Shown here in pieces: positions 910-25,329 of a stretch of 37,370 nucleotides of DNA; positions within the stretch are counted from its first letter, which is position 1; every line of letters begins with the position of its first letter. Both the position numbers and the translations under genes were made by a program. Below the pieces are notes generated by a model. The model did no database searches and had not been told where the DNA came from. It saw only the letters and a list, made by a program, of their open reading frames with translations. This DNA is from Enhydrobacter aerosaccus (GTDB taxonomy: Bacteria; Pseudomonadota; Alphaproteobacteria; Reyranellales; Reyranellaceae), in NCBI GenBank assembly GCA_903915535.1, contig CAIWTJ010000038.1:1-37370 (forward strand). Reading direction: 5' to 3'.

Positions 910-3621
910 ATGCAGCGCAATCTCTTCTCCTATATCTGGCGGCACAGCCGGCGCGAGCAGATCGTGATCCTGGGTCTCGTCGTGCTGGCGCAGATCTTCT
1001 ATTTCCTGTCGCTCAGCGTTCCCAAGTCGATCGTCAACAACGGCATCTCGGGCAACGCCTTCAAGGACGCGCCGACCGTCCAGATGCTGTCGATCACGAT
1101 CCCTGTGCCGCGCTTCATCGGCCGCGACATCCATCTGTTCGACGGCTTCACGGCCGACCAGCTCACCTATCTCGTGATCATGAGCTTCGTCTTCCTGGGT
1201 GCGGTGATCATCAACGGCCAGTTCAGGAAGAGCATCAATACGCAGAAGGGCCGCATGGGCGAGCGCATGCTGCGCCGTCTGCGCTACGAGCTCTACGACC
1301 GCATCCTGCGTTTCCCGGCCGCACACTTCCGCAAGGTCAAGCAGGCCGAGCTCGCCACGATGATCAAGGACGAGGTCGAGCCGCTCGGCGGCTTCATCGG
1401 CGACGCTTTCGTTCAGCCGATGTTCCTGGGCGGCCAGGCGCTGACCGCGATCGTCTTCATCCTGATGCAGAACTGGATCCTGAGCCTCGTGGTGATCGTG
1501 CTGCTGGCGGTGCAGATGATGATCGTGCCGCGGTTGCGCAAACCCGTCCTGGTGCTGGGCCGCCAGCGTCAGCTCTCGGCCCGCCTGCTGGCCGGGCGCA
1601 TCGCGGAGACCGCCGACGGCGTGAACGAGATCCATATCCATGGATCGTCGAACTACGAGCGGGCCGACATTTCGGAGCGGCTGGGCCACATCTTCAGGAT
1701 CCGCTTCGAGCTCTACAACAAGAAATTCGTCGCCAAGTTCTGGAACAACATCCTGTCGCAGGCGACGCCCTTCGCGATCTACCTCCTTGGCGGCTACTTC
1801 GCGATCACCGGCAAGATGGACGTGGGCGCGGTCGTGGGCGTGCTGCTCGCCTACAAGGACCTGCCGGGCCCGATCAAGGAACTGATCGACTGGGACCAGC
1901 AGCGCCAGGACGTGCAGATCAAGTACGAGCAGGTGATCGACCAGTTCCAGCCCGAGGGCATGATGCCGCCCGAGCTGCAGACAATGCCGGACGGCCCGCC
2001 GCCGCCGCTCGGCCACGAGCTGGTGCTCGCAGGCGTGACCGTCACCGAAGACGGCCGCGTGAAGCAGCTCGACGCCGTGTCGCTGGTGGTGCCGACCGAC
2101 GCGAAGATCGCCGTGATCGGCGCCTCGAGCTCGGGCAAGGACGTGCTGGGCCAGGTGCTGGCGCGCCTCGTGCTGCCGAACGGCGGCTCGATCAAGATCG
2201 ACGGCAAGGACTTCCTGCAGCTTCCCGAATACCTGCTGGGTTCGCGGCTGGGCTACATCGGACAGGAGACTTATCTCTTTCCGCAAAGCGTGCGGGACAA
2301 TCTTCTGTTCGGGCTGAAGCACCGCCCGATTTCGCCGGCGAAATACGAGGGCGACGTCGCCGCGGCACGCGAGCTGTTCTGGCTGGAGGCCGCGCGCTCG
2401 GGCAACCCGGCGCTCGACCCCAACGCCGACTGGATCGACTACGAGCTGGCGGGCGCCACCGGCCCGGCCGACCTGCTGCCCTGCATGGTGCACGCGCTAC
2501 AGCAGGTCGAGCTCGACGACGACATCTACTCGCTGGGCCTGCGCGGCGCGATCGACGCGGCACTGCGGCCCGATCTCGCCGAGAAGATCCTGAAGGCGCG
2601 GCATACGCTGCATGAGCGCCTCAAGGACCAGAAGAATGCCGGCCTGATCGAGACTTTCGACGCCGACAAGTACAACAAGAACCTGTCTGTCGCGGAAAAC
2701 CTGCTGTTCGGCACGTCGGTCGGCACGGATTTCGACGGCGACAATCTCGCCGCCAATCCCTATGTGCAGACCGTGCTGCTGAAGACCGGGTTGGACAAGG
2801 ACCTGCTCAGCATGGGTCTGTCGATCGCCGAGACAATGGTCGAGCTGTTCTCGGGCCTGTCGCCCGACAATCCGTTGTTCGAGCAGTACAGCTTCATCTC
2901 CGCCGACGAGCTGCCCAACGTCCGCCTGTTGCTGCAGCGGCTGGGTGGCAAGGGCGTCGAGGCCGTGCCGCCGTCCGACCAGGCCCGACTGATGACGCTG
3001 CCGCTGCGATACATCGAGGCCCGCCATCGCCTCGGCCTGATCGACGGTGCGATGGAAGACCGTTTGCTCGCCGCCCGGCGGGCCTTCGCCGAGAACCTGC
3101 CGGCGAATCTGCGCGGCTCGGTCGAATTCTACGATTTCGACCAATACAACAGCGCAGCGACCCTGCTGGACAACATCCTCTTCGGCCGTGTGGTCTATGG
3201 CCAGGCGCAGTCCGAAAGCCGCATCCGTGCCCTGCTCACCGACGTGCTGGCAGAATTGCATCTGCGCGATTCGGTGATCGAGGTCGGTCTGGAGTACAAT
3301 GTCGGCGTCGCCGGACGACGCCTGCCGGCGACGCAACGACAGAAGCTCGGCATCGCCCGGGCGCTGATCAAGCGGCCGCAATTCCTGATCGTCAACGAAG
3401 CGGTCGCCGTGTTCGACGGCCGCACGCAGGATCGCATGCGTGACAACATATTGGCGGCGGCGGACGGCCGCGGCGTGGTGTGGATCGCCAGCCGTCCCGG
3501 CCAGTCCGAGCCGTTCAAGCGGATCGTGGTGATGCAGTCGGGCAAGGTCGTCGAGCAGGGATCGCCCGAGGAGCTGGCCGCGAAGGGCAAGGTATATGCC
3601 GAACTCATGTCGTCGGCTTAG
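910..3621 (+). CDS. ABC exporter-like fusion protein with triplicated, degenerate nucleotide-binding domain
   Basis: 903 residues, about 300 longer than a normal half-exporter. Residues 1-320 form an ABC exporter-type membrane domain with hydrophobic spans near 17-36, 86-103, 172-206 and 285-313. The nucleotide-binding part starts near 370. Its Walker A is GASSSGKDV (404-412): Lys410 is kept, but the middle Gly is Ser and the Ser/Thr after Lys is Asp. The signature is LPATQ (805-809) instead of LSGGQ. Walker B is FLIVNEAVAVFD (825-836), with Asn829 for Asp and Glu830 kept. The usual switch His is Ser861 in IASR. Between Walker A and the signature lie about 390 residues carrying three copies of a Q-loop/NLLFG motif (450-468, 583-601, 741-759). 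It is the first gene of an operon with a cNMP-binding protein and a methyltransferase. It may export a lipid or glycoconjugate (divergent glycosyltransferase), or act as a regulatory pseudo-ATPase; substrate unknown. Confidence 0.85.
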   Translation: MQRNLFSYIWRHSRREQIVILGLVVLAQIFYFLSLSVPKSIVNNGISGNAFKDAPTVQMLSITIPVPRFIGRDIHLFDGFTADQLTYLVIMSFVFLGAVIINGQFRKSINTQKGRMGERMLRRLRYELYDRILRFPAAHFRKVKQAELATMIKDEVEPLGGFIGDAFVQPMFLGGQALTAIVFILMQNWILSLVVIVLLAVQMMIVPRLRKPVLVLGRQRQLSARLLAGRIAETADGVNEIHIHGSSNYERADISERLGHIFRIRFELYNKKFVAKFWNNILSQATPFAIYLLGGYFAITGKMDVGAVVGVLLAYKDLPGPIKELIDWDQQRQDVQIKYEQVIDQFQPEGMMPPELQTMPDGPPPPLGHELVLAGVTVTEDGRVKQLDAVSLVVPTDAKIAVIGASSSGKDVLGQVLARLVLPNGGSIKIDGKDFLQLPEYLLGSRLGYIGQETYLFPQSVRDNLLFGLKHRPISPAKYEGDVAAARELFWLEAARSGNPALDPNADWIDYELAGATGPADLLPCMVHALQQVELDDDIYSLGLRGAIDAALRPDLAEKILKARHTLHERLKDQKNAGLIETFDADKYNKNLSVAENLLFGTSVGTDFDGDNLAANPYVQTVLLKTGLDKDLLSMGLSIAETMVELFSGLSPDNPLFEQYSFISADELPNVRLLLQRLGGKGVEAVPPSDQARLMTLPLRYIEARHRLGLIDGAMEDRLLAARRAFAENLPANLRGSVEFYDFDQYNSAATLLDNILFGRVVYGQAQSESRIRALLTDVLAELHLRDSVIEVGLEYNVGVAGRRLPATQRQKLGIARALIKRPQFLIVNEAVAVFDGRTQDRMRDNILAAADGRGVVWIASRPGQSEPFKRIVVMQSGKVVEQGSPEELAAKGKVYAELMSSA

Positions 3622-4108: not shown

Positions 4109-4597
4109 ATGAGCCGTCTCGACAGTTTCATCGCGCGCATGCAGGCGCAGCGCGATTGCCTGAACTACCTGAAGCCGAAAGTGGACGCGCTCGCCGGCCC
4201 GATCCTCGAAGTGGGCCTCGGCAACGGCCGCACCTACGATCACCTGCGCACGCTGTTTCCCGGCCGCGACATCTATGTGTTCGAGCGCAAGGTGGCGGCC
4301 CATCCCGACTGCATCCCGCCCGACGATCGGCTGTTCCTGGGCGACGCCGACAAGACCATCCCGCAGGCCGCGCTCCGTCTCGGCGCCACGGCGGCGCTGA
4401 TCCACACCGATCTCGGCACCGGCGATCATGCGGCCAACGTGGAGATGGGCAAGTGGCTGGGCCCGGCGCTCGACAGGCTCGCCGCCCCGGGCAGCTACGT
4501 TCTGGCCAACCAGGCCCTGACCGTGGCGCGCTGGCGGCTCTTGCCCGAGCCGCCCGGCGTGCCGAAGGACCGCTACTTTCTCTATCGCGTCGCCTAG
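4109..4597 (+). CDS. Small class I SAM-dependent methyltransferase
   Basis: 162 residues. Motif I reads ILEVGLGNGRT (32-42), followed by an acidic position in the VFER strand near 57-60, as in Rossmann-fold methyltransferases. The short length and overall pattern recall the Pfam family Methyltransf_17, but I cannot search to confirm. The start is 13 bases after the stop of the cNMP-binding gene, and AGAGG abuts the ATG directly, so it may rely on translational coupling. It is the last gene of the ABC operon; its stop is five bases from the convergent YeaQ-type gene. Substrate unknown. Confidence 0.75.
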   Translation: MSRLDSFIARMQAQRDCLNYLKPKVDALAGPILEVGLGNGRTYDHLRTLFPGRDIYVFERKVAAHPDCIPPDDRLFLGDADKTIPQAALRLGATAALIHTDLGTGDHAANVEMGKWLGPALDRLAAPGSYVLANQALTVARWRLLPEPPGVPKDRYFLYRVA

Positions 4598-23137: not shown

Positions 23138-23974
23138 ATGCCCCAGTCGTTGTCCCTGCGCGGCCGTTGGCGGCGGCTGAAGCTCGGCCTGCCGACGATC
23201 CTCGGCTTCAAGCCCGGCGGCTGGTTCATCCCGCATCGCTATGCCCCGCTGTTGCCGCCGCCAGGTGCGCAGCCGCCCTATCCCGCCATCGAAGCGCTAT
23301 TCGAGCAAAAGCAGGCGGCGTTCACCGCGATGATCGACCTGCTCGACGCGCATGCCGCGGAGCTCGAGAGGCTGGGGCCGCTGCTCGACCAGGCGTGGTT
23401 TCCCTCGCTCGATGCCGCGATGGGCTACGTGCTGGTGCGCGAGCGCAAGCCGCGGCACATCATCGAGATAGGCTCCGGCCATTCGACCCGCGTGCTGGCC
23501 AAGGCCTCGGCGGGGCTGGGCGAGATCACGGCGATCGATCCCGCGCCGCGTGCCGACATCGCTGGCCTTCCCGGCGTCACCATCGTGCCGTCGACCCTGC
23601 AGGCGGCGCCCGCGTCCCTGTTCGACGCGATGCTGCCCGGGGATATGCTGTTCATCGACTCGAGCCACATCCTGATGCCCGGCAGCGACGTCGACTTCCT
23701 GTTCAACCGCGTGCTGCCGCGCCTGCCCACGGGCGCCCTGGTGCATATCCACGACATTTATCTGCCATTCGACTATCCCGCGATGTGGGGCTGGAGAAAC
23801 TACAACGAGCAGCAGGGCGTGGTGCCGCTGCTGACCTCCGGCGCCTACGCCCCGCTCTTCTCCAGTGTCTGGGCCGAGCGCCGGCTCACCGATCGGCTTG
23901 CCCGCTCGGTCGTGGCACGCCTCAAGCGGCCGCCCGACGCGCTGGCCGCCAGCCTCTGGCTCGAGAAGCGGTGA
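23138..23974 (+). CDS. Class I SAM-dependent methyltransferase (Methyltransf_24-like)
   Basis: 278 residues. Motif I is HIIEIGSGHSTRVLAKA, followed by ITAIDPAPR with the acidic ribose-binding residue, and GDMLFIDSSH and LVHIHDIYLP form the later core strands; the pattern resembles the Methyltransf_24 family that often acts on sugars or small molecules. The N-terminus (about 1-90) is a helical cap. It lies between the MBL hydrolase and the cyclase gene, and its TGA shares one base with the cyclase ATG. Substrate unknown. Confidence 0.8.
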   Translation: MPQSLSLRGRWRRLKLGLPTILGFKPGGWFIPHRYAPLLPPPGAQPPYPAIEALFEQKQAAFTAMIDLLDAHAAELERLGPLLDQAWFPSLDAAMGYVLVRERKPRHIIEIGSGHSTRVLAKASAGLGEITAIDPAPRADIAGLPGVTIVPSTLQAAPASLFDAMLPGDMLFIDSSHILMPGSDVDFLFNRVLPRLPTGALVHIHDIYLPFDYPAMWGWRNYNEQQGVVPLLTSGAYAPLFSSVWAERRLTDRLARSVVARLKRPPDALAASLWLEKR

Positions 23975-25329
23975 TGCTCGCGCGACTGCGCGCCTGGCTG
24001 TTCGACGGCGGCGGGCCGGAAAATCTTCCAGAGAGGGTGCGCGAGGCGATCCGCCTCCAGCAGGAGCGCAGCGAGATCCTGATCGCCTGGGTCCAGCTGT
24101 CGATCATCGCCCTGGTCGCGACGGTCTACGAGACGACCTCGATGCCGGGCGGCGTCGTGCAGTACGATTTCTCGTTCGAGACCCAGGTCTTCGCCGCTTA
24201 CGGCGTGTTCTGCGTGGTGCGCCTCGTGCTCGCCTACCGCCGCCTGATGCGCCCCTGGATGCTCTATGTCTCGGTGTTGGCCGACATGGCCCTGCTGATG
24301 GGGCTGATCTTCTCGTTTCCGTTGAAGTACGCCCAGCCGGCCGCCTTCTACCTGAAGGTTCCGACGCTGCTTTACGTGTTCCTGTTCATCGCGCTACGGG
24401 CCCTGCGCTTCGAGGCGCGCTTCGTGCTGTTCACCGGGTTCGTCGCGATCGTGGGATGGATTGCGCTCATCCTATATGTGCTGAGCGGCAAGGGCGGCCC
24501 GGAAGATGTCCGCACCGACGACTTCGTCGAGTACATGACGTCGAACCTGCTGCTCGTGCATGCCGAGGTCGACAAGATCATCGCCATCGCGCTCACGACG
24601 ATCGTGCTGGCCGTCGCCATCGCCCGCGCGCGTCACCTGCTCACGCGCGCCGTCACCGAAAGTGCCGCGGCGCGCGATCTCTCGCGCTTCTTCGATCCCG
24701 ACGTCGCCGACCGCATCCGCTCGGCGCACATCTCGATCAAGGCGGGCGAGGGCGAGTTGCGCGACGTCACCATCTTGACCGTCGACCTGCGCGGGTTCAC
24801 GCGGCTGTCGACAGAACTTGCGCCGGACCAGATCATGAAGCTGCTGCAGGACTATCAGGGCCGCATCTGCCCGCTGATCGTCGGCAACGGCGGCAGCATC
24901 GACAAATTCCTCGGCGACGGCATCCTGGCCTCGTTCGGCGCGGTGACGCCGTCGGCCACCCCGGCGGCCGACGCGATGCGTGCCGCCGATGCGGTGCTGG
25001 AGGCCGCCGACAAATGGATTGCAGAGCGGCAGGCGGCAGGTCTGGCTCCCCTCACGATCGGCATGGGGCTCGCCGCCGGACGGGTGGTTTTCGGCGCCGT
25101 AGGCGATGGCGAGCGGCTTGAATTTACCGTGATCGGCGACGCTGTGAATTTTGCGGCAAAGCTGGAGAAGCACAACAAGGACGAAAAAACGCGGGCGCTG
25201 ACCGACGGCAAAACCTATGCGCTGGCCGAGCAACAGGGTTACACTCCACCCCGGGAGCGCGAGCGACGGCTGGGGCGGCGTGTGGGGGGCGTGTCCGAAT
25301 CGGTCGATATAGTGGTGCTTGGTACGTGA
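23974..25329 (+). CDS. Membrane class III adenylate/guanylate cyclase
   Basis: 451 residues. Six predicted membrane helices (about 34-52, 70-87, 96-114, 126-142, 150-171, 199-219) are joined by a linker helix to a C-terminal class III cyclase domain (about 255-425). The metal-binding Asp271 (VDLRGF) and Asp315 (DKFLGDG) are present, Lys311 and Thr385 fit ATP selection, and Asn392 is in place. The transition-state Arg is Lys396 (VNFAAKLE), a change I recall from a rhizobial subgroup. It would make a cyclic nucleotide, probably cAMP, in response to a membrane signal. It overlaps the preceding methyltransferase stop by one base. The 150-residue cNMP-binding protein at 3643 is a possible receiver. 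Confidence 0.88.
   Translation: MLARLRAWLFDGGGPENLPERVREAIRLQQERSEILIAWVQLSIIALVATVYETTSMPGGVVQYDFSFETQVFAAYGVFCVVRLVLAYRRLMRPWMLYVSVLADMALLMGLIFSFPLKYAQPAAFYLKVPTLLYVFLFIALRALRFEARFVLFTGFVAIVGWIALILYVLSGKGGPEDVRTDDFVEYMTSNLLLVHAEVDKIIAIALTTIVLAVAIARARHLLTRAVTESAAARDLSRFFDPDVADRIRSAHISIKAGEGELRDVTILTVDLRGFTRLSTELAPDQIMKLLQDYQGRICPLIVGNGGSIDKFLGDGILASFGAVTPSATPAADAMRAADAVLEAADKWIAERQAAGLAPLTIGMGLAAGRVVFGAVGDGERLEFTVIGDAVNFAAKLEKHNKDEKTRALTDGKTYALAEQQGYTPPRERERRLGRRVGGVSESVDIVVLGT

Follow-up and report, generated by a model that had tools for sequence, protein, structure and literature searches.

An ABC exporter homologue with three homologous Q-loop units in one nucleotide-binding domain and a conserved cyclic-nucleotide-binding partner

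We find that an ABC-exporter-like protein encoded in the window (the whole stretch of DNA analysed, 37,370 nucleotides, which is an entire contig of a 5.8 Mb genome) carries three homologous Q-loop units within a single nucleotide-binding domain (NBD), and that its gene is followed directly by one for a cyclic-nucleotide-binding protein. The closest named relatives of the window's genome are, among the matches listed in a protein search and a contig scan, Reyranella and Enhydrobacter. Our preferred reading, to which we give a probability of roughly 45%, is that the protein is an MsbA-type homologue that has acquired a three-unit NBD, has lost several ATPase residues and likely serves as a cyclic-nucleotide-controlled translocator of glycoconjugates. 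The features on which this reading draws are collected in Table 1.

Table 1. Features of the ABC gene, its mapped parts and the adjoining genes (positions in the window)
Feature	Position	Strand	Basis or remark
ABC-exporter-like protein, 903 aa, enlarged NBD	910..3621	+	ORF; PF00664 and PF00005 over cut-off; AlphaFold2 model
ABC_membrane domain, residues 19-311	964..1842	+	PF00664 match; no other large region is better conserved in the family
Degenerate Walker A GASSSGKD, residues 404-411	2119..2142	+	Asp in place of Ser/Thr after Lys
Motif copy 1, residues 450-468, Q-loop and DNLLFG	2257..2313	+	aligns with canonical Q-loop segment
SLGL segment of unit 1, residues 541-544	2530..2541	+	sequence position
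Helix-strand before motif 2, residues 554-582	2569..2655	+	AlphaFold2 model; matches helix-strand before motif 3
Motif copy 2, residues 583-601, inserted unit	2656..2712	+	profile comparison; N597 in 143/143
SMGL segment of unit 2, residues 634-637	2809..2820	+	sequence position
Helix-strand before motif 3, residues 713-740	3046..3129	+	AlphaFold2 model, profile comparison
Motif copy 3, residues 741-759	3130..3186	+	continues into helical stretch and signature matching ordinary NBDs; N755 in 143/143
EVGL segment of unit 3, residues 791-794	3280..3291	+	sequence position
Degenerate signature RRLPATQRQK, residues 803-812	3316..3345	+	LSGGQ glycines mostly lost in family
Degenerate Walker B FLIVNEA, residues 825-831	3382..3402	+	Asn for Asp
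Cyclic-nucleotide-binding protein, stand-alone, 150 aa	3643..4095	+	PF00027; conserved partner gene
Glycosyltransferase-like gene, N-terminal part, cut by contig end	1..741	-	divergent from ABC gene; start at 741
Methyltransf_17 protein, next downstream gene	4109..4597	+	Pfam; matches in 23/80 named loci (best 80 of 479)

Results

Three homologous units

A first-pass annotation of this DNA had reported three ungapped 19-residue matches at residues 450-468, 583-601 and 741-759, and all three lie at exactly these positions in the 903-residue open reading frame. Their ungapped BLOSUM62 scores are 31 (copies 1 and 2), 26 (1 and 3) and 51 (2 and 3), and neither the best pair nor the triple was matched in 200 shuffles of residues 360-903. 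The annotation had further placed a short segment ending in GL some 60-75 residues behind each copy (about 25-30 in its third-to-second comparison); the segments are present, beginning at residues 541, 634 and 791, but a spacing of 60-75 fits only the first, with 72 residues between motif end and SLGL against 32 before SMGL and 31 before EVGL. Its observation that only the third copy leads into the signature and Walker B was borne out.

Are the three motifs related to one another? In profile-profile comparisons based on 143 sequences (an alignment that omits, from the second set of 65 loci described below, the window's own protein, L006, an ordinary ABC protein, L066, and the truncated L029), unit 1 matched unit 2 with a probability of 92.8% (E = 3.9e-7), unit 2 matched unit 3 with 98.3% (E = 2.3e-14 over 64 columns) and unit 1 matched unit 3 with 93.2% (E = 3e-7). 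Column-shuffle controls, 20 per unit pair, never exceeded 2.8%, and 12 control comparisons against segments from the family's own membrane domain stayed at or below 1.6%, so that the profile self-comparison proposed earlier finds the repeat significant for all three pairs, far above the shuffled controls. The 19-residue motifs are the cores of homologous units. Units 2 and 3 also share the helix-strand element just ahead of the motif (97.5%, E = 4.9e-12), and this element gave no match to the true signature/Walker B segment in profile comparison.

The motif Asn residues N464, N597 and N755 are kept in 141/143, 143/143 and 143/143 sequences and, among non-redundant members, in 66/68, 68/68 and 68/68; judging from these aligned relatives, in which the motif Asn is kept, the tripled repeat is ancestral. 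Homologs with a Walker A to signature distance of roughly 390 residues had been suggested as a further check, and they exist: from the Walker A Lys to the signature Gln, the 143 relatives span 365-471 residues with a median of 399, and the long spacing is therefore a trait of the family.

Relation to ordinary NBDs

We built a profile of ordinary NBDs from six exporter-like NBDs out of 13 collected. It matched unit 1 at 91.4%, aligned at the Q-loop, and unit 3 at 98.6% (E = 1.1e-15) from that segment on through the signature and Walker B. Unit 2 gave a weak match to the Q-loop segment of the profile (8.4%, E = 0.004) that beat 200 of 200 column shuffles, and a longer stretch of unit 2 compared with 18 ordinary NBDs reached 17.8% (E = 0.0014) and beat 100 of 100; the alignments of unit 2 to ordinary NBDs fall in the expected register. 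By BLAST, one of the 18 ordinary NBDs matched unit 2, namely that of L066, an ordinary ABC ATPase whose single Q-loop/ENMFLG segment (258-266) matches 460-468, 593-601 and 751-759 alike. Those exporter profiles that match best from the N-terminal side stop just beyond the unit 1 motif (for example MsbA, 78-478), and other exporter profiles match best starting at the unit 3 motif (for example NF008056, 735-896).

In the AlphaFold2 model of the whole protein, computed from an alignment of 80 chosen sequences, the core NBD is predicted to be complete, the ComA NBD being aligned over 240 of 240 residues at 2.2 Å in structural comparison, and the structural matches of the model include SUR chains. 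Unit 2 alone, aligned from 105 of 106 computed references (L138 omitted), gave no clear match in a structural search, its likeness to NBDs or helical subdomains being weak, and no match at E <= 1 among PDB sequences. The earlier suggestion of a tandem expansion of the helical subdomain thus holds in so far as the units are homologous, but unit 2 alone resembles helical subdomains weakly in structure. The simplest account is that the NBD was opened after its Q-loop segment and that units of the same kind were added, only the last of which continues into the signature.

Decay of the ATPase motifs

Both Pfam domains of the ABC protein exceed their cut-offs (PF00664 at 62.7 bits, PF00005 at 53.2 bits), with the membrane domain fused to the NBD. 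Of 68 non-redundant members, 31 retain the Walker A Lys and 7 the Ser/Thr behind it, 9 the Q-loop Gln, 5 and 6 the two signature glycines, 14 the Walker B Asp, 27 the catalytic Glu and 17 the H-loop His. The window protein itself reads LPATQ at the signature and Asn-Glu at Walker B, with Ser at the H-loop. The Walker A Lys and Ser/Thr and the Walker B Asp and Glu occur together in a single member (L054), which lacks the LSGGQ and H-loop residues despite its intact Walker A and B. ATP hydrolysis is accordingly predicted, from these residues, to be weak or absent; ATP binding would be possible, since the window protein retains the Walker A Lys, the Q-loop Gln and the Walker B Glu.

The membrane domain (residues 8-345) is the most conserved large region, with a mean entropy of 1.58 bits; motifs 2 and 3 stand at 1.22 and 1.43 bits, and the remaining NBD stretches at 1.99-2.25 bits. 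Since the lowest entropy falls in the membrane domain and the motifs while the ATPase motifs have decayed, selection appears to maintain the membrane domain and the repeat over catalysis. The protein is thus an ABC exporter by its predicted fold, with an NBD that departs in sequence from those of working exporters.

The cyclic-nucleotide-binding partner

The partner gene begins 21 bases past the ABC stop, and its product matches PF00027 with E = 1.8e-18 and 66.7 bits against a cut-off of 27.5. It lies directly downstream of the ABC gene in all 80 named loci, which are the best 80 of 479 matches in the contig scan; there, in reading frames taken from stop to stop, the partner profile match starts at a median distance of 31 bases past the ABC stop, at -30 to +250 in 73 loci and between -342 and +284 in the rest. 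In a second set of 65 loci, which may overlap the first in genomes, the partner is downstream in 53, fused to the C terminus of the ABC protein in 6 and absent in 6. The last group consists of L066, which is no member of the family, and five divergent members of one family (L055, L056 and L058-L060), in which no cyclic-nucleotide gene was found within about 1.1 kb downstream; this divergent subfamily is 41-44% identical to the window protein in the insert, and L055 is 27% identical overall.

A branch with SH-aLRT support of 95% separates the six fused forms from the other sequences (in a tree that omits L055, L056, L058 and L068 from the 68 rows). The fused forms carry three motifs too, which is why triplication and partnership are likely old. 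Walker A is strongly altered in the fused forms L063 and L070 (G190) and L064 and L069 (G423); these two genomes belong to one family and hold two or three insert matches each, two of which were fetched per genome.

In the partner, the phosphate-binding cassette shows strong conservation (G83 in 81/81, E84 in 79/81, R93 in 81/81 and A95 in 81/81), and Pfam found no DNA-binding domain in the 150-residue protein. The partner likely controls the adjacent ABC protein.

Neighbouring genes

Of the named loci with at least 3 kb of upstream sequence (70 of the best 80 of 479), 59 carry GT28-type glycosyltransferases upstream and 58 contain glycosyltransferases of GT4 type. As glycosyltransferases are linked to the pair, the substrate may be a lipid-linked sugar or a polysaccharide. 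GT28-type genes are absent from 11 of the 70 loci (L080, L084, L088, L090, L091, L093, L114, L125, L135, L136 and L144), and the substrate assignment is therefore not valid for all loci. Of these, L084, L088, L090, L091 and L093 include four labelled betaproteobacterial, and L114, L135, L136 and L144 come from rhizobia or other Alphaproteobacteria. The glycosyltransferase-like gene of the window has relatives in 64 of the 80 named loci (best 80 of 479), and a full-length relative in L076 matches PF04101.

Neighbour genes were called with a crude gene caller in 81 regions. A cluster of class III cyclase-like genes lies near 6 of the 80 loci (best 80 of 479), and PF00211 matched in 5 of 6 such neighbours tested. 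Among the loci of this type, L093, L110, L114 and L144 gave no glycosyltransferase match (L110 is too short upstream to count), and L096 has both a class III cyclase-like gene and a glycosyltransferase match. The window's genome holds 23 PF00211 matches, one of them at residues 532-676 of a 720-residue ORF in the window (23167-25329, + strand), roughly 20 kb away from the ABC gene and its partner gene. At G000:C285:6329-7454, two identically scoring cyclase domains lie on opposite strands within 1.2 kb, possibly an assembly palindrome.

An MBL-fold hydrolase recurs near the pair in 24 of 81 regions (for example L093, 3020-3841; PF12706 in 4 of 4 tested) and might act on the same signal as its phosphodiesterase. 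In 14 of 81 regions, many of them from Mesorhizobium, the pair has a DUF3095-type protein nearby (for example L096, 12207-13373; Pfam match in 3 of 3 tested), and the sequence includes a stretch that to us resembles class III cyclases, ATTDIVGSTRAI; the full-text literature searched yielded no mention of the term DUF3095. With the same gene caller, no second ABC exporter gene was found conserved across the 80 named loci (best 80 of 479).

Spread of the family

Of 7995 candidates scored in the protein search, 3362 matched at E <= 0.001. The insert is present in 40 of 61 genomes comprising the window's and its relatives. Sampling of the class gave 98 genomes with the insert out of 289, and a phylum sample gave 26 out of 299, none of which lies outside that class; in one of the 26, G369, the match is L066, an ordinary ABC protein. 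Rhizobia are among the named carriers (best 80 of 479). Six family-carrying metagenome-assembled genomes (L084, L090, L091, L093, L101 and L110) are labelled Nitrosomonadales, Betaproteobacteria, Burkholderiales or Rhodoferax, and their fetched stretches gave no glycosyltransferase match.

Discussion

How might such a protein work? In ABC exporters, a single Q-loop/helical module per NBD couples ATP to the membrane domain. In the mechanism that we propose, the extra units would broaden the NBD surface that, in ordinary exporters, contacts the coupling helices of the membrane domain, and the partner would dock on this enlarged NBD as a regulatory subunit. Binding of cAMP or cGMP by the partner would then shift the membrane domain between states, so that the cyclic nucleotide, and not ATP hydrolysis, would set its state; the cargo would be a glycoconjugate.

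Three other explanations have to be weighed. The protein might be the degenerate half of a heterodimer, with an ordinary half-transporter encoded elsewhere providing the ATPase site, while the cyclic-nucleotide protein and the extra units would only tune the complex. ABCB-type heterodimers often include a degenerate half, the core NBD is modelled as complete and the same genome has other ABC exporter-like ORFs; such halves are, however, usually co-encoded, and the sole neighbour that the crude gene caller found in 80/80 named loci (best 80 of 479) is the cyclic-nucleotide protein and no second exporter. We consider this arrangement somewhat unlikely. Alternatively, the protein might not pump at all, its NBD being a ligand-operated switch and its membrane domain a cyclic-nucleotide-gated channel or scramblase that is independent of ATP. 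The loss of many catalytic residues, a conservation that is highest for the membrane domain and repeat motifs, and a 150-residue partner with a conserved cyclic-nucleotide cassette and no DNA-binding domain found are consistent with such a switch, but the Walker A Lys persists in 31/68 members and the Walker B Glu in 27/68, and we judge it unlikely.

Convergence of the middle segment on a short motif within an unrelated insert would fit the modest profile matches of unit 2 to ordinary NBDs (E = 0.0014 and 0.004) and its want of a clear structural match or of a PDB sequence match at E <= 1. It is nonetheless highly improbable, given the match between units 2 and 3 (E = 2.3e-14 over 64 columns) and between their preceding helix-strands (E = 4.9e-12), the success of unit 2 against 200/200 and 100/100 column shuffles in the expected register, and the ordinary ATPase L066, which matches all three units.

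The cyclic-nucleotide-controlled translocator remains our preferred reading. A bolder version, which we consider unlikely, is that of an exporter family spread across the Alphaproteobacteria in which a second messenger has replaced ATP: catalysis would have been lost and the fold kept, and the three-unit platform would seat a cAMP/cGMP sensor that opens the membrane domain. A tripled module, decaying ATPase residues and a constant cyclic-nucleotide receptor would together make a natural experiment in rewired coupling, and the protein would be a bacterial transporter under second-messenger control. It may matter for surface glycans, because glycosyltransferases lie upstream in most testable loci, the insert occurs in 98/289 genomes sampled from the class, and rhizobia are among the named carriers.

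Comparison with known systems

Of the 148 NCBIfam models that the window ABC protein matched, the 25 best all stay below their cut-offs, and with four relatives the same is true of every model at E <= 1e-20; full-text literature searches found no description of the present family. The MsbA model TIGR02203 gives the window protein 188.7 bits, below its cut-off of 602. An ordinary ABCB exporter has one Q-loop/helical segment and about 100 residues from Walker A to the signature. Compared with MsbA-like ABCB exporters (of which MsbA, TM287/288, TmrAB and ComA have solved structures), the present protein is longer by about 270 residues in the interval from Q-loop segment to signature and has three Q-loop/ENLLFG units instead of one, and its Walker A, Walker B, signature and H-loop are degenerate.

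The NHLP/NHLM bacteriocin export systems (TIGR03796, TIGR03797 and TIGR03896) likewise combine, by their model names, an ABC exporter with a cyclic-nucleotide-binding domain; both window proteins score with these models, but far under the cut-offs (145.1 against 853.3, 138.8 against 709.4 and 45.7 against 161.05 bits, respectively). The partner has the conserved phosphate-binding cassette in common with Crp/Fnr-type proteins (PF00027) and differs from them in its length of 150 residues, in which Pfam found no DNA-binding domain. CFTR and SUR also combine degenerate ATP sites with a membrane domain that answers to another control. Both are full-length proteins of eukaryotes, under regulation by phosphorylation or ADP/ATP, and neither is known to have three Q-loop units or a comparable partner protein that binds cyclic nucleotides. 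If the second-messenger gating outlined above is true, it would be the bacterial counterpart of the way in which CFTR and SUR have turned transporters into regulated gates.
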